Positions 39,676 through 50,965 of a stretch of 64,000 bases of DNA are shown here, one piece after another. The DNA comes from Arthrobacter citreus (GTDB taxonomy: Bacteria; Actinomycetota; Actinomycetes; Actinomycetales; Micrococcaceae), in contig NZ_CP151657.1 in the NCBI RefSeq assembly GCF_038405225.1, positions 2,542,001 through 2,606,000 on the forward strand, given 5' to 3'. The position numbers and the translations under genes are program-made. Below the pieces are notes generated by a model, which was given only the letters and a program-made list of their open reading frames with translations, searched no databases and had not been told where the DNA came from. The stretch's first letter is position 1. Each line of letters starts with the position of its first letter.

Positions 39676-39788
39676 GTCTCCGAGAGTAGCCGGAAGTGCC
39701 CGTTGGCAGGCCCGGAACAGGCCGCAGCCCTGTCCCGGTATTCACGCTCCCGGGTACCGTCAAAGAACGCTCTTTCCGGAGGTTCTTT

Positions 39789-40310
39789 ATGGACTGGCTG
39801 GCCGTTTCCCTTTTTGCCGTCGCGTCACTGATCCTCGGGGCAGCCGCAGGCTGGAGTGTCCGGGCCGGCATTGACCGCCGGGATGAAAACGCAGCCCTGA
39901 ACGCGCTCATCACGGACCTGCACCTGAAGCGCCCGCTGGCCGCGATCGAACCGCGGCTCATCGACGGAGCCGGCGACGAGGAACGCTGCCGCGCCACGGT
40001 GCTGGATGCCAGGGACAGAATCATCGAAACGCTGTCCCACCTGCGCAGCGGCTCCGCCAACACCGAGGTGCTGATGCGAATGTCCGCCGCGTGCACCCGC
40101 TACCTGCGGGAATCCTCACGGGCGCCGGAACGCTATCAGTTCGCCCTCATGGAGCTGCGCGGGACCATGGTCGACGGCGTGAAACTGCTCAGCGACGCCC
40201 GCCGGCGGGTTCGTTACCGTTCACCCGGCGAGCGCCCGGTGGCGAAACCCGGCCGCCCCAAGCCCGGCCGCCCGGGGTTGGGAAGGGCACCGTCACGGCC
40301 GAGCCGCTGA
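39789..40310 (+). CDS. hypothetical single-pass membrane protein
   Basis: 173 residues from the ATG at 39789, with GGAGG at ~39777. One N-terminal membrane helix (~3-25) followed by a helical soluble domain (ERCRATVLDARDRIIETLSH, MRMSAACTRYLRE) and a Lys/Arg/Pro/Gly-rich tail with PGRPKPGRPG. The tail may bind nucleic acid or membrane phosphates. Family not recognised. Confidence 0.65.
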   Translation: MDWLAVSLFAVASLILGAAAGWSVRAGIDRRDENAALNALITDLHLKRPLAAIEPRLIDGAGDEERCRATVLDARDRIIETLSHLRSGSANTEVLMRMSAACTRYLRESSRAPERYQFALMELRGTMVDGVKLLSDARRRVRYRSPGERPVAKPGRPKPGRPGLGRAPSRPSR

Positions 40311-40451
40311 CGTTTATGACGCCGTGCTCGACACATTTCCGAAGTAAAACGTCATGCCCCGGCGCATAGGGAAACGCTGCGTCATTGTCTTGCCGGACCG
40401 CCATCCCCCGCGCTTCCATGGTGCTGTCCGCTTTTCACCAACGGACACCCA

Positions 40452-40541
40452 AACCATCCAGAGCGGCTGAGAGACCTGGCTCGTTGACGCCGCAGCAACC
40501 ACCCTTTTGAGGGCCGGTGCTCATGCCAGGACCGATGGACT
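40452..40541 (+). ncRNA. SAM riboswitch (SAM clan; P4 not evident, SAM-I/IV-like)
   Basis: Closing stem CCATC (40454-40458)/GATGG (40534-40538). P2 GCGGC/GCCGC frames CTGAGAGACCTGGCTC. The consensus GCAGCAACC follows and then P3 (CCC TTTTGA GGG within ACC...GGT) and GGTGCTCATGCCAGG. The loop CCTGGC (40475-40480) can pair with GCCAGG (40525-40530), the conserved pseudoknot. After it the RNA goes straight to the closing strand with no P4, which points to the SAM-IV or SAM-I/IV arrangement. It precedes an ABC importer and two flavin monooxygenases. Confidence 0.9.
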
Positions 40542-40561
40542 CATTTCCCCGTTGGGCCATG

Positions 40562-40631
40562 GCTGCAGCTCACTGTGCAGCGGCGGCTCCGGCGTGCTCG
40601 AATACCGTGTTCCTCGGTGCGACCCGAGAGG
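40562..40631 (+). promoter_or_regulatory. expression platform and ribosome-binding-site hairpin of the SAM riboswitch
   Basis: Two hairpins follow the aptamer: GCTGCA (40562-40567)/TGCAGC (40576-40581), and CTCGG (40613-40617)/CCGAG (40624-40628). The second includes part of the ribosome-binding site GAGAGG (40626-40631), five bases before the ATG at 40637. No T-tract follows, so control is probably at translation initiation. Confidence 0.55.
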
Positions 40632-40636
40632 ATCCC

Positions 40637-42316
40637 ATGCTCGACTCCGCCCGATTCCCCCGCACCTTTGCGAACCGCGCATCCCTTGCCTCCCGCGCCT
40701 CAGTCCGGATATCAACGCTGCTGGTGGTGGGTGCGCTGGCTTTGGCCGGCTGCGGATCGGGGGCCAACACGCAGAACGCCGGCGGCACCTCCCCGGCTGC
40801 GTCCGGTGAAGCGGTCGACGGCGGCACACTGGTGTACGCGGAGGTCACCCCGATCAACAACTGGCAGACCCAGGCCGCGCGTTTTTACGAGAAGTCCAAT
40901 GTGCTCAACTCGGTGCTGGACCGGCTGACCTACTTCGACCCGGACAAGGGCGAGCTGGTTCCGTGGATCGCCTCGGCCTTCTCAGCCAACGCCGACAGCA
41001 CCGAATTCACCTTCACCATCCGCCCCGGCGTCACGTTCAGCGACGGCGCCCCGCTCGACGCCGCCGCGGTGAAAGCAAACCTGGACAGCTTCGGCCTGGG
41101 TGTTCCCGCCGCCCAGATCCAGCCGAACGTGGACTTCGCCGGCTACCAAAGCAGCGAAGTGATCGGCTCGGATCAGGTGCTGGTCACGCTGGGCGCCCCG
41201 AACTCCAACTTCCTGCGCGCCACCTCCTCCGTCACCGCCGGACTCGTGTCACCGGCCACGCTGCAGAAGGATGCGGCCGGGCAGTCGGCCATCTCGTCCA
41301 TTGCGGGCTCCGGACCTTTCGTCTACGAATCGGAAAAGCCCGATGAGGAAGTCGTGCTCGCCAAGCGGGACGGCTACGCGTGGGCGCCGGACGGAGCGGA
41401 GAACCCGGGCGAGGCGCACCTGGACAAGGTGGTCATCAAGTACCTGCCCGAGGTTGCCCACCGTGCCGGCGCCGTACAGTCCGGACAGGTGGACCTGGTG
41501 CGCGGCCTGCAGCCGGTGGACGAGGCGGCGCTGGCTTCCAGCGGAAACCAGGTTCTGGCGGCCGACGGCGTGGACCTCACCGCAAACATGGCTGCTGTGC
41601 GGACCGGCAGCGGAAAACTGGCCGATCCGGCCGTGCGGCAGGCCCTGCAGGTCGGCATCGACCGGCAGACCATCAAAGACACGGTGCTGTCCGACAGCTA
41701 CACCCTGGCCGGGTCCGTCCTGAACCACCAGGCTCCGGGATTCGTGGACCTCAGCGCGGACCTGGCCTACAACCCGGAGAAGGCACGGCAGCTGCTGGAC
41801 GACGCCGGCTGGAAGGAAGGCAGCGACGGCATCCGGGAGAAGGACGGCGAGAAACTCGAGGTCACCGTCACCAGCTCCAACAACTCAGTGGTGATCAAAC
41901 CGGCCTTCGAACTGGTCGAGCAGCAGTGGCGGGAGATCGGCGTGCAGCTGAACAACCGCGCCGGAGACAACACCTTCCTCACCACAGCGATGCCCGACCC
42001 AAAGGTGGAGTTCTTCGGCACCCGCCAGTTCATCTACGGCGGACTGGGACCCATCTTCGAACCGGCCAACAACACCATGACGCACACCTCGGACCCGGAA
42101 CTGAATGCCCTGTTCGCCGCCGAGCGCGCCGCCGCCCCGGGACCGGAACGGGACAAGGTCCTGGCCGCGGAACAGCAGGCACTCGTGGTGGACAAGGCCT
42201 TGTCCCTGGTGCTCTGGGACGAGGTCCAGGTGTACGGCGCGCACCGCAACACCCACATCGACTTCACCTCCGGCACGGCGCCTATCTTCCAGGGCGCCTG
42301 GAAAGCGGACGGCTAA
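40637..42316 (+). CDS. ABC transporter substrate-binding lipoprotein, family 5 (peptide/nickel/opine type)
   Basis: 559 residues from the ATG at 40637. The signal peptide has a lipobox (ALAGC, Cys39). Family-5 features include GGTLVYAEVTPINNW near the mature N-terminus, FTIRPGVTFSDGAPLDAAAV (about 115-135) and RQALQVGIDRQTIKD. First gene after the SAM riboswitch. The riboswitch indicates a sulfur-containing ligand, perhaps a thioether, sulfone or sulfur-bearing peptide rather than a general peptide. Confidence 0.92.
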   Translation: MLDSARFPRTFANRASLASRASVRISTLLVVGALALAGCGSGANTQNAGGTSPAASGEAVDGGTLVYAEVTPINNWQTQAARFYEKSNVLNSVLDRLTYFDPDKGELVPWIASAFSANADSTEFTFTIRPGVTFSDGAPLDAAAVKANLDSFGLGVPAAQIQPNVDFAGYQSSEVIGSDQVLVTLGAPNSNFLRATSSVTAGLVSPATLQKDAAGQSAISSIAGSGPFVYESEKPDEEVVLAKRDGYAWAPDGAENPGEAHLDKVVIKYLPEVAHRAGAVQSGQVDLVRGLQPVDEAALASSGNQVLAADGVDLTANMAAVRTGSGKLADPAVRQALQVGIDRQTIKDTVLSDSYTLAGSVLNHQAPGFVDLSADLAYNPEKARQLLDDAGWKEGSDGIREKDGEKLEVTVTSSNNSVVIKPAFELVEQQWREIGVQLNNRAGDNTFLTTAMPDPKVEFFGTRQFIYGGLGPIFEPANNTMTHTSDPELNALFAAERAAAPGPERDKVLAAEQQALVVDKALSLVLWDEVQVYGAHRNTHIDFTSGTAPIFQGAWKADG

Positions 42317-42318
42317 CC

Positions 42319-43278
42319 ATGGCCCGCTATCTCCTGAACCGCTTCGGGCAGGCCCTGCTGGTGGTCTGGCTCGCCTACACCCTGATTTTCCTGGCGGTGC
42401 AGCTGCTGCCCAGCGATCCGGTCACCATCTTCCTGACCTCCGACTCCGCAGTGGACCAGGCTGCGATCGACACCATGAAAGCCCAGTACGGCTATGACCA
42501 GCCGCTGCTGATCCAATATTTGTCGCAGCTGGGTGCCCTGCTGCAGGGCGACGTCGGCTACTCCCTGACCTCGGGCGAAGCGGTGACCGAGCGCATCGGC
42601 GGAGCCATCGGTTCCACCCTGGCGCTTGCCGCTTCGGCGCTGGCAGCCGCCGTCGTCATCGCCCTGGCCGTAGTGGCAGCGGCCACTCTGGCGCCGTCGC
42701 CGGTGCTGCGCCGCGCGCTGGCCAATCTGCCGCCGCTGTTCTCCGCCGTGCCGGTGTTCTGGCTCGGGCTCGTGCTGCTGGAGCTGCTGTCCATCCGGCT
42801 GGGGGTGCTGTCGCTGTTCCCCGACGGGTCCTTCCTCTCTCTTGCCGTGCCGGTGCTGGTGCTGGCCGTGCATGTTTCCGCGCCCATGGCGCAGGTGCTG
42901 CTCAAAAGCGTGGAGCAGGTGTACCGGCAGCCGTTCATCGATGTGCTCCGCGCCAAGGGTGCGTCCCCGGCATGGATCTTCTGCCGGCATGCGCTGCAGA
43001 ACGCTGCCGGGCCTGCCCTGTCCATCCTGGGCATCACCGTGGGCACACTGTTCGCCGGGTCGGTGATCACCGAGACAGTGTTTGCCCGCGCCGGCCTGGG
43101 CTCGGTGGTCCTGCAGGCGGTCACCACCCAGGACGTGCCCCTGGTCCAAGGCCTGGTGCTGCTGACAGCCACGGTGTTTGTGGCCGTCAACCTGCTCGTG
43201 GATCTGCTGTACCCGCTGCTGGATCCGCGCATCCTAAAAGGCGCCCGGCAGGGCTCAGCCCCCGCCCTCGCCTCCTGA
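42319..43278 (+). CDS. ABC transporter permease (DppB type)
   Basis: 319 residues; two bases after the binding-protein stop. About six membrane helices, starting with ALLVVWLAYTLIFLAVQLLP. The DppB signatures DQPLLIQYLSQLGALLQGDVGYS (in parts) and the EAA region QPFIDVLRAKGASPAWIFCRHAL (in parts, ~205-225) are present. Confidence 0.93.
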   Translation: MARYLLNRFGQALLVVWLAYTLIFLAVQLLPSDPVTIFLTSDSAVDQAAIDTMKAQYGYDQPLLIQYLSQLGALLQGDVGYSLTSGEAVTERIGGAIGSTLALAASALAAAVVIALAVVAAATLAPSPVLRRALANLPPLFSAVPVFWLGLVLLELLSIRLGVLSLFPDGSFLSLAVPVLVLAVHVSAPMAQVLLKSVEQVYRQPFIDVLRAKGASPAWIFCRHALQNAAGPALSILGITVGTLFAGSVITETVFARAGLGSVVLQAVTTQDVPLVQGLVLLTATVFVAVNLLVDLLYPLLDPRILKGARQGSAPALAS

Positions 43279-43316
43279 CACCGCTTCCCGACTCTGTTAC
43301 AGCGCAAGGACTCCCC

Positions 43317-44210
43317 ATGACATCCCTCCTTCCTCCCGCACCCATCGCCGGTGCTGCGTTGGCGTCCGGACCGGCGGATTTACCGGCTGCTCCGGCACGA
43401 CGACGGCGGCCGCCGGGTGTCCGCCCCGCCCTGGCCCTGACTCTGCTGCCGGTGCTGCTGATCGCAGCCTGGGCGCTTTTTCCCGGCCTCTTCACCGGAC
43501 AGGATCCGATCAGCGGGATTCCGCAGGAGAAATTCCAGGCCCCCACCGCCGAGCACTGGTTCGGCACCGATCACCTGGGCCGGGATGTGTTTGCCCGCGT
43601 GGTGCACGGCACGTCGCAGACGTTCCTGACCGCCGGACTGGCCGTGCTGATCGGGCTCGTGGCCGGAACCCTCATCGGGGTTCTGGCCGCCACCGGCGGA
43701 CGCGCCGCCGATGCGGTCACCATGCGCCTGGTGGATGTCCTGCTCGCGGTCCCCGGTTTCCTGATCGCGCTGATCATCGTCACCGCGTCCGCACCGGGTC
43801 CGGTGTCCCTGGGCCTCGGAGTGGGCATCGCCGCCATCGCGTCCTTTGCCCGGGTGGTCCGGGCCGAAGTGCTGCGGGTGCGGAACCTGGAATTTGTGGA
43901 GGCGGCCTTCCTCACCGGCGGCACCTACTGGACCGTCCTGCGCCGGCACCTGCTGCCCAACGCCGCCGGACCGGTGCTGTCCCTCGTCGCCGTGGATCTT
44001 GGCGCCGCCATCCTCGTGGTCTCCTCGCTGGGCTTCCTGGGCTTCGGCGCTCCCCCGCCCGAGCCTGAATGGGGACTGCTGATCGCCGAGGGCCGCCAGT
44101 ACCTGGGCACCGCATGGTGGATGACCACCCTGCCCGGCCTCGTCATTGTCACCACTGTGGTCCTGCTGGCCGCCGTCGGCCGCCAGCTGCTCAAGAGCTT
44201 CCGGTTCTGA
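43317..44210 (+). CDS. ABC transporter permease (DppC type)
   Basis: 297 residues. DppC N-terminal region HWFGTDHLGRDVFARVVHGT (about 80-99) is followed by five or six helices and the EAA segment EFVEAAFLTGGTYWTVLRRHLLPN (in parts, about 190-212). A Pro/Ala-rich cytosolic start of ~30 residues precedes the first helix. Confidence 0.93.
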   Translation: MTSLLPPAPIAGAALASGPADLPAAPARRRRPPGVRPALALTLLPVLLIAAWALFPGLFTGQDPISGIPQEKFQAPTAEHWFGTDHLGRDVFARVVHGTSQTFLTAGLAVLIGLVAGTLIGVLAATGGRAADAVTMRLVDVLLAVPGFLIALIIVTASAPGPVSLGLGVGIAAIASFARVVRAEVLRVRNLEFVEAAFLTGGTYWTVLRRHLLPNAAGPVLSLVAVDLGAAILVVSSLGFLGFGAPPPEPEWGLLIAEGRQYLGTAWWMTTLPGLVIVTTVVLLAAVGRQLLKSFRF

Positions 44211-44223
44211 GAAAGGAACCCGC

Positions 44224-45993
44224 ATGAACTCCCCAGACACCCCGTCACCCGCTGCCCCACTTACTGAGTCCCCCGTCGATTTCCCTGCTGGCACTCCCGA
44301 AGACTCTTCCGAACGCGCCCTGCTCTCGGTGCGCGGGCTGACTGTCGAGTACGGCCGCGCCTCCGCCCGCACCGGCAACGCTGCCGCCCCGGCGGCCGCC
44401 GGCGTCAACCTGGCGGTGAACCGCGGCGAAGTGGTGGCGATAGTGGGTGAATCCGGATCCGGAAAATCCACCCTGGCCAAGGCGATCATCGGGCTGCTGC
44501 CGGAGACCGGGCATATCACCGCCGGGAGCATTACCTTCGACGGGCAGGACCTGACCGGCCTGTCCGACGCCGGTTTCCGACGGCTGCGGGGCCGCCGCAT
44601 CGGCCTGGTTCCCCAGGATCCCGGAGCATCCCTGGACCCGGTGAAAACCATCGGCTCGCAGGTTGCCGAAATCTTCCGTCTGCACCCTGACGCGGGACCG
44701 CAGGGAAAACGCCTCACCCGGGCCGAGCTGCGCGGCGAGGTGGTCCGGCTGCTGGAGCTGGTCGGCATCGACCGTCCGGAAGAACGTGTGCGCCAGTATC
44801 CGCACGAGCTCTCCGGCGGGCTCAAGCAGCGGGTCCTCATCGCCATCGCCTTTGCCCTGCAGCCGGACCTGCTGATTGCCGACGAACCCACTTCGGCCCT
44901 GGATGTGACGGTACAGAGCCGGGTGCTGGACGTTTTCGGGCGGCTGGCCTCCACCTACGGAACCGCAGTCCTGTTTGTCACGCATGACCTGGCCGTGGCC
45001 ACCGACTACGCCTCGCGCGTGGTCGTGATGAACAACGGCCGGATCCGCGAGGACCGGCCGGTCCTGGACATTCTCACGCGCCCCGAGGACCCGTACACCG
45101 CGCAGCTGCTCGCCGGCGCCTCTCCCGGCCGCCGGGCCGACCAGGAGCAGGCCCGGCCGTCGTCGTCGCCGCCGTCGTCCGCAGTTCCCGCCCTGGAAGT
45201 CGCGGACCTGGCCAAGGTCTTTTCCCGCACCGGCACCGAACGCCGGGCCGTGGACGGAGTGTCCTTCGCGGTCCGGGCCGGGACCACCTTCGCGCTCGTC
45301 GGGGAATCGGGCTCCGGCAAATCCACCACCGCCCGGTTGATCCTGCGGCTGCTGGATCCCACCGGCGGCACCATCCGGGTTGCCGGCGAGGATGTCACCG
45401 CCATCGCTGGAAAAGGACGGCGGGACCTCTGGCGCAGCCTGCAGCTGGTCTATCAGAATCCGGACACGGCGCTGGATCCGCGGCTGAGCGTCGAGGACAT
45501 CATCGGTGAACCGTTGCGCAATTACCGGATTGGTTCCAAGAATGAGCAAAAGGCGCGGGTGGCCGAGCTGCTGGAACAGGTGAATTTGCCCTCCCGCCTG
45601 GGACGGAGCCGGCCGATGGAGCTGTCCGGCGGCCAGCGGCAGCGGGTGGCCATTGCCCGCGCGCTGGCACCGGGCGCCCGGACGCTGGTCCTCGACGAGG
45701 CCCTGAGCGCCCTGGATGTCCTGACCCAGGCGCAGGTCCTGGAACTGCTGAAGTCTCTGCAGGCGGAGCTCGGCCTGTCCTACCTGTTCATTTCGCATGA
45801 CCTGCACGTGGTGGAACAGGTCTCGGACGACGTCGGCGTTATGCACCGCGGGCACCTCGTCGAAACCGGGCCCACCGCCGCCATCTTCGCGAATCCCGCC
45901 AGCGAGTACACCCGGCGGCTCCTTGCCGCGAACCCCGGGCACCGGCTCCGGGACCTCGCCGCGTCCCGGGAGCTGGCCATTTCCCAGGCCTGA
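44224..45993 (+). CDS. fused dual ATPase of the ABC importer (DppD-DppF type)
   Basis: 589 residues, with two nucleotide-binding domains in one chain. Walker A GESGSGKST appears near residues 76 and 359; the signature motifs are LSGGLKQR (~197) and LSGGQRQR (~467), each followed by a Walker B (LLIADEP; TLVLDEA). A proline/serine-rich linker (PSSSPPSSA) joins the halves. It energises both permeases. Fusion of the usual two subunits is common in Actinobacteria. Confidence 0.93.
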   Translation: MNSPDTPSPAAPLTESPVDFPAGTPEDSSERALLSVRGLTVEYGRASARTGNAAAPAAAGVNLAVNRGEVVAIVGESGSGKSTLAKAIIGLLPETGHITAGSITFDGQDLTGLSDAGFRRLRGRRIGLVPQDPGASLDPVKTIGSQVAEIFRLHPDAGPQGKRLTRAELRGEVVRLLELVGIDRPEERVRQYPHELSGGLKQRVLIAIAFALQPDLLIADEPTSALDVTVQSRVLDVFGRLASTYGTAVLFVTHDLAVATDYASRVVVMNNGRIREDRPVLDILTRPEDPYTAQLLAGASPGRRADQEQARPSSSPPSSAVPALEVADLAKVFSRTGTERRAVDGVSFAVRAGTTFALVGESGSGKSTTARLILRLLDPTGGTIRVAGEDVTAIAGKGRRDLWRSLQLVYQNPDTALDPRLSVEDIIGEPLRNYRIGSKNEQKARVAELLEQVNLPSRLGRSRPMELSGGQRQRVAIARALAPGARTLVLDEALSALDVLTQAQVLELLKSLQAELGLSYLFISHDLHVVEQVSDDVGVMHRGHLVETGPTAAIFANPASEYTRRLLAANPGHRLRDLAASRELAISQA

Positions 45994-46036
45994 GCAGCTT
46001 CCATGTTTCCCACCCTCCCCTTCCGAAAGGAACCCC

Positions 46037-47308
46037 ATGACCCGCACCAGCAGCATCACCCTGAACCATCGAACCGCCACCGGCGAGGCCCGGTACGCTG
46101 CCCTCGCCGCCCGGTTCCGTCCGGTTTTTGAGCGCATCGCCACCGGAGCGCTGGACCGCGAACAATCCCGAACCCTGCCGTTTGAACAGGTGCGCTGGCT
46201 CCAGGACTCCGGCTTCACCGCGCTCCGCGTCCCGGCCGGGCACGGCGGAGACCCGGTCAGCGCCGAACACCTGTTCCGGCTGCTGATGGAGCTGGCGGCG
46301 GCGGACTCGAACGTGGCGCATCTGCTGCGTTCCCACTTCGCGTTCGGCGAGACCGCAGCCCTGCAGCCGGCCGCCTTCCGGGAGCTATGGTTTCCACGGA
46401 TCCTCGCCGGGCAGATCTTCGGCAACGCCGCCACCGAGCGCTCCGGCAACGCGTTGGGCACCACCTCCACCACCCTGCGGCAGGAAGCCGGCCGGTGGCT
46501 GTTGCGCGGGGAAAAGTACTACACGACTGGCAGCATCTTCGCGGACTGGGTGGTGGTCATGGCCAGCACCGCCGGTGTGGAGGGACGGCAGTACGCCGTC
46601 GTGCCGGCCGACGCTCCAGGGGTGAGCATCGTCGATGACTGGGACGGCTTCGGCCAGCCGCTCACCGGCACCGGAACCGCCGTGTTTGATGACGTGCCGG
46701 TGGAGACTGGGAACATTCTGCAGCGCCAGGTCACCAGCACCCTGGAACCCGCGTTTTTCCAACTGTTCCTGCTGGCCGTCCTTGCGGGAATCGGCCGGGC
46801 GGCCCTGCACGACGCCACGGATCTGGTGCACTCACGCACCCGCACCTTCAACACCGGCTCCGGACAGCTGTTCCGCGACGATCCCATCATCCAGGAACAC
46901 GTCGGCCAGCTCGCCGCGAAGGTGTACACCGCTGAAGCCGTGGTCACCGCAGCCGCGCGTGACCTCGATGCCGCGGCCGATCCTTCCCTGGAGCTGTCAT
47001 CCGAGCAGGCGTTCCTGCGCGCCGAACTGGCGGTGCAGCAGGCCCACGTTGCGGTTCCCGGCCTGGTGCTGGATGCCGCGAGCGCCCTTTTTGATGTCAC
47101 CGGCGCCTCCGCCGTCAGCCGCAGCAGGGGCCTGGACCGGCACTGGCGCAACGCCCGCACCGTCGCCACGCACAACCCCAGTGCCTTCAAGGCCCGGTCC
47201 GTCGGTGACTATCTGGTCAACGGCACCATCCCCACCGGCCTGCACAGCATCGGCGACGTCCCGCCGTCGTCCGCTGCCCCGTCCACCACCCCTGGAGCGA
47301 TTTCCTGA
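46037..47308 (+). CDS. acyl-CoA dehydrogenase-like flavin monooxygenase (DszC/SfnC type)
   Basis: 423 residues from the ATG at 46037, with GAAAGGA upstream. Acyl-CoA dehydrogenase fold: LLMELAAADSNVAHLLRSHF (about 85-104), EKYYTTGSIFADWVVVMAS (about 160-178), and a C-terminal helical domain with HWRNARTVATHNP (about 375-387), a hallmark of the DszC/SfnC and ThcD-like oxygenases. Such enzymes use FMNH2 made by a separate reductase to oxygenate a sulfur atom. A reductase gene is not in this window. Confidence 0.85.
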   Translation: MTRTSSITLNHRTATGEARYAALAARFRPVFERIATGALDREQSRTLPFEQVRWLQDSGFTALRVPAGHGGDPVSAEHLFRLLMELAAADSNVAHLLRSHFAFGETAALQPAAFRELWFPRILAGQIFGNAATERSGNALGTTSTTLRQEAGRWLLRGEKYYTTGSIFADWVVVMASTAGVEGRQYAVVPADAPGVSIVDDWDGFGQPLTGTGTAVFDDVPVETGNILQRQVTSTLEPAFFQLFLLAVLAGIGRAALHDATDLVHSRTRTFNTGSGQLFRDDPIIQEHVGQLAAKVYTAEAVVTAAARDLDAAADPSLELSSEQAFLRAELAVQQAHVAVPGLVLDAASALFDVTGASAVSRSRGLDRHWRNARTVATHNPSAFKARSVGDYLVNGTIPTGLHSIGDVPPSSAAPSTTPGAIS

Positions 47309-48693
47309 TGTCAACGTTCACCCCCCGCCCCCGGCTGCTGCTCAGCGCCTTCGCCATGAACACCACCAGCCACATCCTCGGCGGCCTGTGGCGCCACCCC
47401 GACGCCCAGCAGCACCGCTTCAACGAGCTTGGACTGTGGACGGATCTGGCGGCCCAGCTGGAAGCGGCGAAGTTCGACGCACTGTTCCTCGCCGACGTCG
47501 TCGGGCTCTACGGCCATCACGACGGCGGGTGGGCCTCGCATGTGGAACGCGGACTGCAGGTGCCGGCGAATGATCCGCTGGTGCTGCAGTCGGCGCTGGC
47601 TGCCCGGACCGAGCATCTGGGGCTGGCGCTGACCAGCTCGGTGGTGCAGGCGCATCCGTTCCAGTTTGCCCGCCAGCTGTCCACGCTGGATCATCTCAGC
47701 GGCGGCCGGGTGGCGTGGAACATCGTGACCAGCGTGCTGGAGAACGCACACCGCAACTTTGGCGGCGACGGACTGGCCGAGCATGACAGCCGCTACGACT
47801 GGGCGGACGAGTACCTCGAGGTTTGCTACAAACTCTGGGAGGGCTCGTGGGACGATGGCGCGCTGGTCCAGGACAAGGCCGCCGGGATCCACGCCGATCC
47901 GGCGCAGGTGCATAAGATCCTGCACCGCGGCCCGCGCTACTGCGTGGACGGACCGCACCTGTCCGCGCCCTCGCAGCAGAGCACGCCGGTGCTGTTCCAG
48001 GCCGGCAGCTCCGGGCGCGGGCAGCAGTTTGCCGCCGCCAACGCCGAAGCGGTGTTCATCTTCGCCCCGCACACCGCCTACGCGAAGAAGACCACCGACT
48101 CCGTCCGGGCGCTGGCCCGCGGTCTGGGCCGGCGCAATGAGGACATCAAGTTCTTCGCCGGACTGTCCTTCGTGGTCGGTTCCACCGAGGCCGAGGTGAA
48201 GGCCAAACAGGCCGACTTTGACGAGTACCTGGATTTGGACGCGATCGTTGCGCACATCGGCGGCGGCATCGGCGTCGACCTTGGCGGCCTGCCGCTGGAC
48301 ACCACGCTCGGCGACCTGCGGACCGACGGCGCCCGCGGCGTGCTGGAGGCATTGTTCGCGTCGGTGCCCGGCGGGAATCCGACCATCGCCGATGTTGCCC
48401 GTTACCGTGCCTACAACCAGCAGATCGCCGGCACTCCGGAGCAGATCGTGGACCAGCTGGAGACCTGGCAGGACGCCGGAGTGGACGGCATCAACATCAT
48501 CAACCAGATCCTGCCCGGCTCCTATACGGACTTCATCGACGGGGTGCTGCCGGAGCTGCGGCGCCGCGGCCTCGCCCAGACGGAGTACCGTCCCGGCACC
48601 CTGCGGGAGAAAATGTTCGACGGCGATGCGCGGCTGCCGTCCCGGCATCCGGGCACGAAGTACCGCGGGGCGTTTTCCTCGGTGGAGGTTTAG
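47308..48693 (+). CDS. LLM-class flavin monooxygenase, NtaA/SnaA/DszA family
   Basis: 461 residues, TGATG overlap with the previous gene. TIM-barrel family features: LLLSAFAMNTTSHILGGLWR at the start, FLADVVGLYGHHDGG (about 63-77), LSTLDHLSGGRVAWNIVTS (about 125-143) and FQAGSSGRGQQFAA (about 230). Family members cleave C-S or C-N bonds of sulfones or chelators with FMNH2 and oxygen. With the DszC-like gene it completes an oxygenate-then-cleave desulfurisation pair under riboswitch control. Confidence 0.92.
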   Translation: MSTFTPRPRLLLSAFAMNTTSHILGGLWRHPDAQQHRFNELGLWTDLAAQLEAAKFDALFLADVVGLYGHHDGGWASHVERGLQVPANDPLVLQSALAARTEHLGLALTSSVVQAHPFQFARQLSTLDHLSGGRVAWNIVTSVLENAHRNFGGDGLAEHDSRYDWADEYLEVCYKLWEGSWDDGALVQDKAAGIHADPAQVHKILHRGPRYCVDGPHLSAPSQQSTPVLFQAGSSGRGQQFAAANAEAVFIFAPHTAYAKKTTDSVRALARGLGRRNEDIKFFAGLSFVVGSTEAEVKAKQADFDEYLDLDAIVAHIGGGIGVDLGGLPLDTTLGDLRTDGARGVLEALFASVPGGNPTIADVARYRAYNQQIAGTPEQIVDQLETWQDAGVDGINIINQILPGSYTDFIDGVLPELRRRGLAQTEYRPGTLREKMFDGDARLPSRHPGTKYRGAFSSVEV

Positions 48694-49090
48694 GGGGGGG
48701 TGTTCGGGCGGTAGGGGAGGGTTGCGGACGGGCGGGCGGGCGGATGTCTGCGTGGCACCGCGGCCGCGGGCACGGATGGTCCGAGCACACGTTCCCACCC
48801 TATGGGGCTGCTGTTGCACCTGAGGTCCCATCAGCCCCACCAGATAACAAAGGGTGGGAACGTGTGTCGGCGCGTTGCACATGGTTGCCTCACGACGAGT
48901 TATTACCCCGGGAGCCCGCTCAGGCGGCAAGGCAGCGTTCGGCGGAATTAATGAGCGAGAGAGTGTATCCCGGTTCGAAGGATGCCGATAAGGGTGCTGC
49001 CGCCTTAGTCCCTTTTCTCCTCGAATGATCATTGATGCACTTGTCTGCGCTCATGCTGGGAAAGTCGGGTTCACTAGCTGAGGAGTGATC
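48694..49090. other. structured intergenic region after the sulfur operon
   Basis: 397 bases without a convincing gene. It begins with a very G-rich tract (48691-48745; at least five G-runs of three or more), then the long hairpin at 48786-48866. From about 48870 to 49080 the DNA has ordinary composition and only short frames. The ribosome-binding GAGGAG of the next gene is at 49079-49084. A GGTTCGAAGG segment near 48975 looks like a T-loop but has no tRNA around it. Confidence 0.6.
48786..48866. repeat. large two-level hairpin element
   Basis: Perfect 16-bp arms CACACGTTCCCACCCT (48786-48801) and AGGGTGGGAACGTGTG (48851-48866) enclose a 49-nt loop. The loop itself holds a 7-bp stem GGGGCTG (48804-48810)/CAGCCCC (48832-48838). 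No T-tract. It looks like a structured RNA, a recombination/repeat element or a bulky terminator. Confidence 0.6.
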
Positions 49091-49747
49091 ATGTCAGAGA
49101 ATCAGCCAGCCAATATGCCTCCATATGATCCACGTGATGCACGCGCTCAGGCAAAGGCAGCCAAGGCCTATGAGAAGGCGCGGCGCCCCTGGTACAAGAA
49201 GAAGCGGTTCATCCTGCCCCTGGCGCTCATCGTCCTGATTATCATCATCAGCATCGCCACTTCCGGCGGCGGTGGAGGGAACGACACAACGGGAACAACC
49301 AATACGGATCCCACCTCAGAGCCAACGGTTACCGAAAGCCAGCCGCCTGCGTTCCCGGGTGCGCAGGAAAGTGACGTCGTTGGCCAGGCCGGCGAGACCC
49401 TGACGCTGGGTGACATCGCCGTCACATCAACACCGCTAATTGCAGGTGACGCGGCCTTCGGCGGATCGGTTCTGTGCACTACCGCAACTGTCCAGAACAA
49501 CTCCAGCGAAACTATCGACTTCAGCACGTTCGATTGGAAGTTGCAGGCGCCCTCAGGGACGATCAACAACACGACAATCACCGGAAGCCAGAACCTGCTT
49601 TCGACGGGGCAAGTAGCACCAGGCGGAACAGCTACGGGCGACATCTGCTTTGACAATGAGCCTGCCGAAGCCGGGCAATCTGTAGTTCTCTATGAACCCA
49701 TCTTTGACTTCTTCTCAGATCGCGGGGCTTGGATCAACACACAGTAA
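49091..49747 (+). CDS. membrane-anchored DUF4352-like protein
   Basis: 218 residues from the ATG at 49091, six bases after GAGGAG; a GTG two codons earlier is possible. A basic cytosolic segment (ARRPWYKKKR) precedes one membrane helix (~40-57), then a Gly/Thr/Ser linker and a beta-rich C-terminal domain of about 125 residues (TLTLGDIAVTSTPLIAG, SETIDFSTFDWKLQAPSG) like the immunoglobulin-type DUF4352 fold. Composition is clearly less GC-rich than in the flanking genes, which suggests later acquisition. Function unknown. Confidence 0.8.
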   Translation: MSENQPANMPPYDPRDARAQAKAAKAYEKARRPWYKKKRFILPLALIVLIIIISIATSGGGGGNDTTGTTNTDPTSEPTVTESQPPAFPGAQESDVVGQAGETLTLGDIAVTSTPLIAGDAAFGGSVLCTTATVQNNSSETIDFSTFDWKLQAPSGTINNTTITGSQNLLSTGQVAPGGTATGDICFDNEPAEAGQSVVLYEPIFDFFSDRGAWINTQ

Positions 49748-49756
49748 GCCCACGCT

Positions 49757-50965
49757 TTAGACCCGCCGCACGTGCTCCGGCGTCAGCTCGGCGAGACTGG
49801 TGACGCCGAGCAGCTGCATCACCGTCGTCATCTCGGTGCGCAGCAGCTCCAGAGTCCGCTCGGCGCCCTGCCGCCCGCCGGCCATCAGCCCGTACAGGTA
49901 GGCCCGGCCAATCAGGGTGAAGTCGGCGCCGGCGGCAATAGCGGCCACAATGTCCCCGCCGGACATGATGCCCGAGTCCAGGATGATCTCCGCCTCGGGC
50001 CCGACGGCGGCGCGGATGGCGGGCAGGATCCGCAGCGGCACGGGCGCCCGGTCCAGCTGCCGGCCGCCGTGGTTGGACACCACAATCGCGTCCGCCCCGC
50101 GGGCGAAAACCTCGACGGCGTCGGCCGGGTTCTGGATGCCCTTGACGATCAGCTTGCCCGGCCAGGCCGCGCGCAGCCAGTCCAGGTCCGCCATGTTCAG
50201 CGACGGTTCAAACATGGAGTTCACCGTCTCGGCCAAGGACACCCGCTCCCCCTCGAAGTTGGCGAACCCCAGTGGTTTGGTGGTGAGGAAGTTGAACCAC
50301 CATTCCGGCCGGTAGGAGGCGTCCAGGATGGTCTTCGGCGTCAGGGTGGGCGGCATGGTCATGCCGTTGCGGGTGTCCCGCAGCCGCGCCCCGGCCACCG
50401 GGGTGTCCACCGTGACAATCAGGGCGCCGTAGCCGGCGGCGGCCGCACGGCTGACCAGTTCCTGGGACCGCTCGCGGTCCTTCCAGAGGTAGAGCTGGAA
50501 CCATTTGGCGGCGTCGGGCACCGTCTCGGTGAGTTCCTCGATGGAGGCCGTGCCCATGGTGGAGAGAGAAAAAGGTATGCCGAACGCGGCCGCGGCCTGC
50601 GCTCCCCCAACCTCGCCCTCGGAGTGCATCAGCCGGGTCAGTCCGGTGGGGCCGATGCCCACCGGCATGGCTGATTCGGTGCCGGCGATCTTGGTGCTCA
50701 GGTCCACGCTCGTGACGTCGCGCAGCACGTTCGGCACGAACTCAACTTCGTCAAACGCCGCCCGGTTCCGGCGCAGCGTCTGCTCGCCGAAGGATCCGCC
50801 GTCCACATAGTCGAAGGCCGCCGTCGGAATCCGCCGCTTGGCAATGTCCCGCAGCTCCCACACATTGGTGGCCTTTGCCAGCCGTGCGCGACGGCGGTCC
50901 AGGTCGAAGGCCTTGAACTGAACAAGGTCGCGGAGTTCGGAGTACTGGGGAATTCGGCGTTTCAT
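49757..50965 (-). CDS. lldD: FMN-dependent alpha-hydroxy acid dehydrogenase (L-lactate dehydrogenase type)
   Basis: 402 residues, full length. FMN-site and catalytic segments are present: FDYVDGGSFGEQTLRRN, the GIGPTGLTRL start of the barrel, TVDTPVAGARLRDTRNG, IVSNHGGRQLDRAP (catalytic His and Arg) and ILDSGIMSGGDIVAAIAAGAD near the end. Oxidises L-lactate or a related 2-hydroxy acid, passing electrons to the respiratory chain in LldD. Glycolate or mandelate relatives cannot be excluded. Confidence 0.92.
   Translation of the reverse strand: MKRRIPQYSELRDLVQFKAFDLDRRRARLAKATNVWELRDIAKRRIPTAAFDYVDGGSFGEQTLRRNRAAFDEVEFVPNVLRDVTSVDLSTKIAGTESAMPVGIGPTGLTRLMHSEGEVGGAQAAAAFGIPFSLSTMGTASIEELTETVPDAAKWFQLYLWKDRERSQELVSRAAAAGYGALIVTVDTPVAGARLRDTRNGMTMPPTLTPKTILDASYRPEWWFNFLTTKPLGFANFEGERVSLAETVNSMFEPSLNMADLDWLRAAWPGKLIVKGIQNPADAVEVFARGADAIVVSNHGGRQLDRAPVPLRILPAIRAAVGPEAEIILDSGIMSGGDIVAAIAAGADFTLIGRAYLYGLMAGGRQGAERTLELLRTEMTTVMQLLGVTSLAELTPEHVRRV

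Follow-up and report, generated by a model that had tools for sequence, protein, structure and literature searches.

The sfn/msu system of Pseudomonas, which acts on dimethyl sulfone and operates under sulfur shortage, combines an S-oxygenating enzyme of the acyl-CoA-dehydrogenase fold with a luciferase-type enzyme that cleaves the C-S bond (PMC8234197; this and the other papers cited are represented by excerpts). MsuC forms an S-O bond, and the cleavage of C-S bonds is the work of group C enzymes, DmoA and CmoJ among them; the sfnAB pair of P. putida, located near ATP-binding cassette (ABC) transporters, is called uncharacterised in the same text (PMC8234197). In Gordonia, an SfnB-family gene is accompanied by luciferase-type monooxygenases (PMC11852219, PMC9861168), and SfnB was found by quantitative reverse-transcription PCR to be up 312-fold with dibenzothiophene as compared with sulfate (PMC11852219). 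The S-adenosylmethionine (SAM) riboswitches of class SAM-I that act on translation in Actinobacteria have sulfur or methionine genes downstream (PMC2258182). A six-gene operon of Arthrobacter citreus unites such elements: enzymes of these kinds are encoded together with an importer, and a SAM-I element stands at the head of the genes. The operon lies in the window, the stretch of 64,000 nt analysed here (GCF_038405225.1, NZ_CP151657.1, 2,542,001-2,606,000, forward strand), and probably serves the SAM-repressed scavenging of organosulfur compounds.

From the sfn/msu system the window operon differs in having neither a regulator gene nor a flavin reductase, in its apparent control by a SAM-responsive RNA and in its dedicated family-5 importer; SfnG reaches only 70 bits (NCBIfam) at this locus. 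The Gordonia region, in turn, contains a TetR regulator and SfnG, and no ABC transporter is among the genes listed in the excerpts (PMC11852219, PMC9861168). With the actinobacterial translational SAM-I riboswitches the window element shares the aptamer core, the pseudoknot, sulfur/methionine genes downstream and a P2 internal loop of 3/6 nt, which matches the Rfam consensus; some paralogous leaders found here also place the Shine-Dalgarno (SD) element in the 3' strand of helix P1, as is described for these switches (PMC2258182). In the open-licence literature, outside of which most subscription papers fall, no link of a SAM riboswitch to such an operon was found, nor an RNA-based sulfur regulon for Micrococcales. 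The word 'riboswitch' is absent from PMC11852219 (PMC9861168 was not searched for it) and from PMC2991359, which describes the genome of Arthrobacter arilaitensis, and the regulon survey PMC3766115, as far as its excerpts go, covers only Corynebacteriaceae and Mycobacteriaceae among the Actinobacteria.

The aptamer and the operon that it heads

The aptamer and its main strands are located as follows (window positions).

40451..40541, + strand: SAM-I (S-box) riboswitch aptamer, P4 helix absent (RF00162)
40454..40458, + strand: P1 5' strand CCAUC, paired in 35/35 sequences of alignment A2
40475..40480, + strand: pseudoknot 5' strand CCUGGC, in the P2 loop
40525..40530, + strand: pseudoknot 3' strand GCCAGG, pairing with CCUGGC at 40475-40480
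40534..40538, + strand: P1 3' strand GAUGG, inside ACCGAUGGA, alternative partner of the anti-SD element

A SAM-clan aptamer had been noticed here in an earlier note on this DNA, which named the lack of any SAM-family hit as one refuting outcome. That outcome did not occur: a covariance-model search of the region gave RF00162 with 61.7 bits, as compared with a gathering score of 44.4 bits (Rfam), at an E-value of 6.8e-12 across the whole window and of 6.3e-14 on a 601-base stretch. It is the sole Rfam match in the 64-kb window to reach its gathering score, and its best clan match is RF00162, not RF00634 (SAM-IV). An alignment of 35 aptamers (A2; one sequence, L002, was left out for its long P3 insert) and the 22 pairs given by RNAalifold were used to build a local covariance model, R1, with which the window aptamer scores 108.1 bits, its sequence being part of the training set.

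In A2, 99.3% of the cells of P1, P2, P3 and the pseudoknot pair. The pseudoknot, which the same note had suspected, is supported by 100% pairing of the letter-bearing cells and by changes on both sides in three of its five counted pairs; the rows of P2b are paired for 97.1%, with one compensatory change. Over the entire aptamer, both-side changes occur at 6/24 pairs, a level reached by 0/500 shuffles. P1 carries no covariation information because it is invariant in the 35 aptamers. Helix P4, by the lack of which the window family differs from SAM-I as defined by RF00162, is present in 0/35 aligned aptamers, only 11-12 nt separating P3 from P1; a further difference is that the window leader is of a spacer-plus-hairpin type. 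P4 is likewise missing from SAM-IV (PMC6890682). On its sequence, the window element is classed as a P4-less variant of SAM-I.

The aptamer is followed by six genes of like orientation, spanning 40637-48693 (+).

40637..42316, + strand: binding lipoprotein of an ABC importer (SBP_bac_5, TIGR04028-like; PF00496, 220 bits)
42319..43278, + strand: ABC permease 1 (PF00528, PF19300; best NCBIfam match Opp2B, 230 bits, cut-off of 350 missed)
43317..44210, + strand: ABC permease 2 (PF00528; best NCBIfam match Opp2C, 223.5 bits, cut-off of 300 missed)
44224..45993, + strand: fused dual ABC ATPase with two ABC_tran domains (PF00005 in two stretches)
46037..47308, + strand: SfnB/DszC-like group D flavin monooxygenase of the acyl-CoA-dehydrogenase fold (TIGR04022, 293.0 bits)
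47308..48693, + strand: NtaA/DmoA-family monooxygenase, luciferase-like and dependent on reduced flavin mononucleotide (FMNH2) (TIGR03860, 484.8 bits against a cut-off of 279.7)

The successive gaps measure 2, 38, 13 and 43 nt and the last junction is a 1-nt overlap, in agreement with the tight operon of a lipoprotein, two permeases, a dual ATPase and two monooxygenases that had been described before.

Conservation of the riboswitch-operon linkage

Model R1 was used to scan the window, three further stretches of the same genome (L034, L035 and L053), 56 actinobacterial or same-order loci and 42 proteobacterial loci. The 60 sources other than the proteobacterial loci yielded 82 strong matches of 81.6-114.8 bits (the 35 training sequences included) and an edge fragment of 27 bits. 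At the 42 proteobacterial loci, which hold distant relatives of the SfnB-like protein, no match exceeded 18.0 bits (E 0.11).

In a family survey of 149 genomes, the own genome included, an ortholog of the binding protein (E<=1e-100) was present in 23, spanning 8 of 32 genera. A SAM-I element stands at the head of the operon in all 23. In 22 it lies directly upstream of the binding-protein gene; in the remaining one (G112) the gene order is permease-permease-ATPase-binding protein-DszA-DszC and the aptamer, with 88.1 bits, is again at the head. These 23 loci do not represent 23 independent events, because at least six are the window or loci otherwise met and several leaders are near-identical. 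The distribution is patchy within the genus, SfnB-like orthologs at 68% or more being present in 6/28 same-genus genomes examined. On plasmids, 301 records matched the NtaA-like protein, none of them reaching 60% identity.

The enzymes lead to the same result. The NtaA/DmoA-like clade comprises the window protein and 23 members with about 60% identity or more, from which L036, beginning at a contig edge, and L095, a Stutzerimonas locus without a riboswitch match, were set aside. In the 22 that are left, window included, upstream DNA is readable and a riboswitch heads the unit in every actinobacterial member (22/22); this set and that of the 23 binding-protein genomes overlap.

Elsewhere in the A. 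citreus genome, RF00162 finds two further elements, both at 41.8 bits and thus just under the gathering score; R1 gives them 83.1 and 82.3 bits, the latter being in the training set. One heads a series of SsuB, SsuA, permease, AcsA-like and MetY-like genes, of which the SsuA, AcsA and MetY products exceed curated cut-offs. In the unit headed by the second, a gene whose match to MetE is weak (PF01717, 28.9 bits) comes first and an acyl-CoA dehydrogenase gene next. Of the local evidence for the window operon being a sulfur operon, these further occurrences of the switch are the strongest. The 23/23 linkage, the retention of the switch where the importer differs (see below) and the ssu-like operon in the own genome make up the comparative genomics by which the earlier proposal of SAM control and a sulfur-scavenging role is strongly supported.

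Several other arrangements were observed around these elements. A paralogous six-gene set (G000:C1:1462051-1469861) is 36-50% identical to the window operon, and its binding protein scores 414 bits to TIGR04028; on the surrounding stretch L053 (G000:C1:1456000-1472000), these riboswitch-less importer-SfnB-NtaA paralogs have a TetR gene and EtfB/EtfA-like genes downstream. SAM-I also heads units with an acetate-CoA-ligase-like gene (cluster c8: L034:5298-7310, L061, L063, L064, L073, L075, L079, L083, L084 and L086), which may be single, be followed by a MetY-like gene or come after SsuB-SsuA-SsuC; a profile names the copy in L034 only. Back-to-back pairs of SAM-I elements, some 100-500 bases apart and heading divergent units, occur in L056, L058, L059, L060, L072, L079, L083, L084, L086, L088, L089 and others. 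In Sinomonas and Arthrobacter sp. H14, SAM-I elements have a SAM-IV element (RF00634, 80-94 bits; L063:15307-15418, L064:19306-19417, L065:11248-11372) at a distance of about 0.15-1.4 kb, and small CoA_binding_2 (PF13380) proteins recur beside sulfur units (L056:12779-13207, c14; L034:9043-9564, c22).

Exchangeable importers

Orthologs of the enzymes retain the riboswitch and go with four types of importer. The window-type ABC importer is carried by 12 of the 22 clade members, and seven (L041, L059, L061, L062, L048, L049 and L052, the contexts of the last three being read through L135-L137) have MetN-MetI-MetQ-type genes, all three of which are found in each locus; these names are the best matches of representatives, all below curated cut-offs. 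One member (L060) has a major facilitator superfamily (MFS) metabolite/H+ symporter (TIGR00883, 401 bits, the cut-off of 443 being missed) and two (L088 and L089) have an SBP_bac_1-type importer. In more distant relatives (L068, L071, L074 and L092), an MFS gene lies between the two enzyme genes.

A tree of 23 labelled rows, L175 having been added, requires at least four changes of importer. Between the window type and the MetNIQ type alone, two changes are needed, or three with another set of rows; Arthrobacter sp. S41, with MetNIQ, is the sister of Glutamicibacter ardleyensis, with the window-type importer, at a support of 100/100. As the importer varies under a switch and enzymes that are kept, the latter form the constant part of the module and the importer the variable part. 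For the same reason, the class of the importer does not fix the substrate, and the swapping narrows it to a solute whose delivery by each of these, dipeptide-, methionine- and SBP_bac_1-type ABC importers and an MFS symporter, would be plausible.

The MetNIQ-type loci, seven in number and under the same riboswitch class, together with SAM as the regulating signal, favour a more specialised role, in which a derivative of methionine or S-alkylcysteine (a sulfoxide, a sulfone or a methylthio acid) would be salvaged as a supply of methionine and not for general desulfurisation. This is rather unlikely: the remaining enzyme orthologs come with three further importer types, the representatives of MetN, MetI and MetQ stay below their cut-offs, and the operon has no acetyltransferase or deacetylase (Pfam), two enzymes that S-alkylcysteine routes of Bacillus typically include.

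The varied contexts also bear on whether the two enzymes form one pathway. They might instead be independent single-step enzymes under a common regulator, each with its own substrate, such as a sulfinate converted to a sulfonate and a thioether to a thiol. In L048, L049 and L052 the NtaA-like gene is followed by a DszC relative of only 30-31% identity, a closer one (44-45%) being located kilobases away; in L088 and L089 the NtaA-like gene stands with the importer and the DszC-like gene on the opposite strand; and in L041, L061 and L062 a MetQ-type gene separates the two. Against this stand the 1-nt overlap of the pair in the window and its adjacency in 14/22 clade members with readable context, and independent action is considered a lesser possibility than a joint pathway for organosulfur scavenging.

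Families of the encoded proteins

The "DszC-like" and "DszA/NtaA-like" labels given to the two monooxygenases in the earlier note were right as to fold and, for the second enzyme, as to the NtaA family, but do not name the nearest relatives. The first enzyme comes closest to SfnB and is SfnB-like, not SfnB, because its 293.0 bits remain below the TIGR04022 cut-off of 430.9; its best solved relatives are the methanesulfinate monooxygenase MsuC (6u76, 137 bits) and TdsC (5xb8, 129 bits). A DszC identity (NF043015) was rejected at 123.1 bits versus a curated cut-off of 850. The second enzyme scores 476 bits with HcbA1, 417 with LadA, 415 with DmoA, 243 with DszA and 159 with ethylenediaminetetraacetic acid (EDTA) monooxygenase among solved structures. 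With SfnB/MsuC and HcbA1/LadA/DmoA as the nearest kin, "DszC-like" and "DszA-like" denote the fold only. With dszABC (the 4S pathway) the operon shares these DszC-like and DszA-like folds, and it differs in the lack of a DszB-like gene, in the presence of an importer and in a DszA score well under those of HcbA1, LadA and DmoA; membership of dsz/4S was rejected on the curated cut-offs (DszC, 123 bits versus 850). The ties of SfnB, MsuC, DszC and DmoA to sulfur count in favour of scavenging.

The translation of the binding protein carries a lipobox-like LAGC. Among solved structures, nickel binders stand nearest to this protein (NikA, 4oer, 115 bits), and the fused ATPase exceeds the cut-offs of NikE (413.1/332.55) and NikD (390.3/318.7); these passes are weak evidence of specificity, because each whole-protein score sums two stretches. 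The nickel importer NikABCDE was rejected, since NikA (156.1/393), NikB (176.6/447) and NikC (188/358.45) are all below curated cut-offs. Together with the naming of TIGR03860 after NtaA, these likenesses could point to the use of aminopolycarboxylates or metallophores, a NikA/EppA-like importer taking up a metal chelate from which an NtaA/EmoA-like enzyme removes the C-N-linked arms; an operon with a chelate importer and an NtaA/EmoA-like enzyme is known from EDTA-degrading bacteria. This is very improbable, given the 159 bits of EDTA monooxygenase versus 476, 417 and 415 for HcbA1, LadA and DmoA, the SfnB-like partner, the SAM class of the switch and the MetNIQ-type importers with which enzyme orthologs are also found.

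A number of observations nevertheless tell against organosulfur scavenging. The binding protein (374.9 bits) misses the TIGR04028 cut-off of 468.5, as the SfnB-like protein does that of its family, and the ATPase passes the nickel cut-offs. By name, the relatives in the NtaA family include C-N, C-Cl and alkane enzymes. Neither a flavin reductase nor a DszB-like gene is present among the six operon genes, and no SAM riboswitch was found by the R1 scan at the paralogous six-gene set. Five PF01613 flavin reductases and two PF03358 proteins are encoded elsewhere in the genome.

Upstream of the operon lies an open reading frame (39696-40310) without a Pfam match. Downstream, a DUF4352 gene (49085-49747, +) is followed by a convergent FMN-dependent dehydrogenase gene (49757-50965, -). 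A single weak terminator-like hairpin was observed past the operon at 48991-49006 (0.4 expected by chance).

Leader and expression platform

Three elements are recognised between the aptamer and the first gene.

40552..40558, + strand: putative anti-P1 element UUGGGCC, 6/7 pairs with GGACCGA
40611..40617, + strand: putative anti-SD element UCCUCGG, a motif shared by orthologous leaders
40624..40632, + strand: SD element CCGAGAGGA, sequesterable by 40611-40617

The UCCUCGG sequence has two possible partners, the SD element or CCGA(U)GGA of P1. The arrangement UCCUCGG...C[CU]GAG..GG is present in 23/30 orthologous leaders, 29 of which are distinct, and in 0/6000 shuffles; as the motif was picked after inspection of related leaders, this shows its conservation and is not an independent test. 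In the window and its orthologs, 92-128 nt separate the aptamer from the start codon. Two types of platform occur among the leaders, one with the SD element inside the P1 3' strand and one with a spacer and hairpin. In many leaders, including that of the ssu-like operon in the own genome, the P1 3' strand CGAUGGAG doubles as SD element, with the start codon some 5-16 nt further on, and such direct occlusion of the SD element by P1 is reported to be frequent in Actinobacteria (PMC2258182). As judged from these sequences, the operon is probably controlled at the level of translation.

Folding does not bear out the switching itself. At equilibrium the SD hairpin is formed about equally with P1 formed or blocked, and constrained folding leaves the window SD element free at 0.21 with P1 formed versus 0.31 with P1 blocked; none of 13 other leaders shows a clear opening of the SD element in constrained folding. 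Since the hairpin is about equal in both states, the switching step was not reproduced in the 14 leaders. In addition, no covariation was found in the leader helices (SD hairpin and anti-P1), and SD complementarity alone was significant (p<=0.05 versus shuffles, contiguous-pairing test) in 0/30 leaders. All of this detracts from the translational model.

Control might thus be exerted on transcription, by Rho or another terminator. The failure to see SD release in folding fits this idea, as does the possible anti-P1 helix, which has 5-7 pairs out of 7 in every one of the 14 leaders and is reminiscent of transcriptional SAM-I switches. No intrinsic terminator-like site is present in 40300-40700, however, the anti-SD/SD motif is kept in 23/30 leaders of 92-128 nt, and related genes use direct P1/SD occlusion, so that transcriptional control is held to be the less probable option and translational control is retained.

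A SAM-I switch of Xanthomonas offers a precedent for a hairpin that does not open upon loss of the ligand: the anti-SD hairpin persists when SAM is absent, and uncharged initiator tRNA brings about its opening (PMC7270179). By analogy, the SD hairpin of the window leader may need a second signal to open.

Proposed function in the cell

In the mechanism that we infer, plentiful SAM would bind to the leader RNA, upon which P1 would form, the SD hairpin would stay closed and the operon would be poorly translated. When SAM, and hence methionine, is short, the operon would be expressed. The importer would then take up an organosulfur compound, probably a polar one, which could be a thioether, sulfoxide, sulfone or sulfinate. 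Oxygenation at the sulfur by the SfnB-like enzyme would precede cleavage of the C-S bond by the DmoA/NtaA-type enzyme, both presumably drawing FMNH2 from a reductase encoded elsewhere, such as one of the five PF01613 proteins, and the sulfur set free, as sulfite or a thiol, would enter assimilation.

Each component is of a known kind, whether the SAM-I riboswitch, the SfnB-like and NtaA/DmoA-like enzymes or the family-5 importer; what appears to be new is their combination into a SAM-switched module with exchangeable importers. A bolder view is put forward tentatively, namely that in Micrococcales the P4-less SAM-I element and the SfnB-like and DmoA-like enzymes constitute a portable sulfur-salvage module, served by at least four unrelated importers, for an undescribed two-enzyme pathway acting on a common organosulfur compound of soil, with an SD hairpin that may need a second signal. 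The findings point to a conserved regulon of Micrococcales in which organosulfur scavenging would be governed by SAM. If this is true, the uncharacterised SfnB-like and NtaA/DmoA-like enzymes encountered repeatedly in many soil bacteria could be assigned roles, and it would make a SAM-responsive, P4-less leader available for biochemistry.

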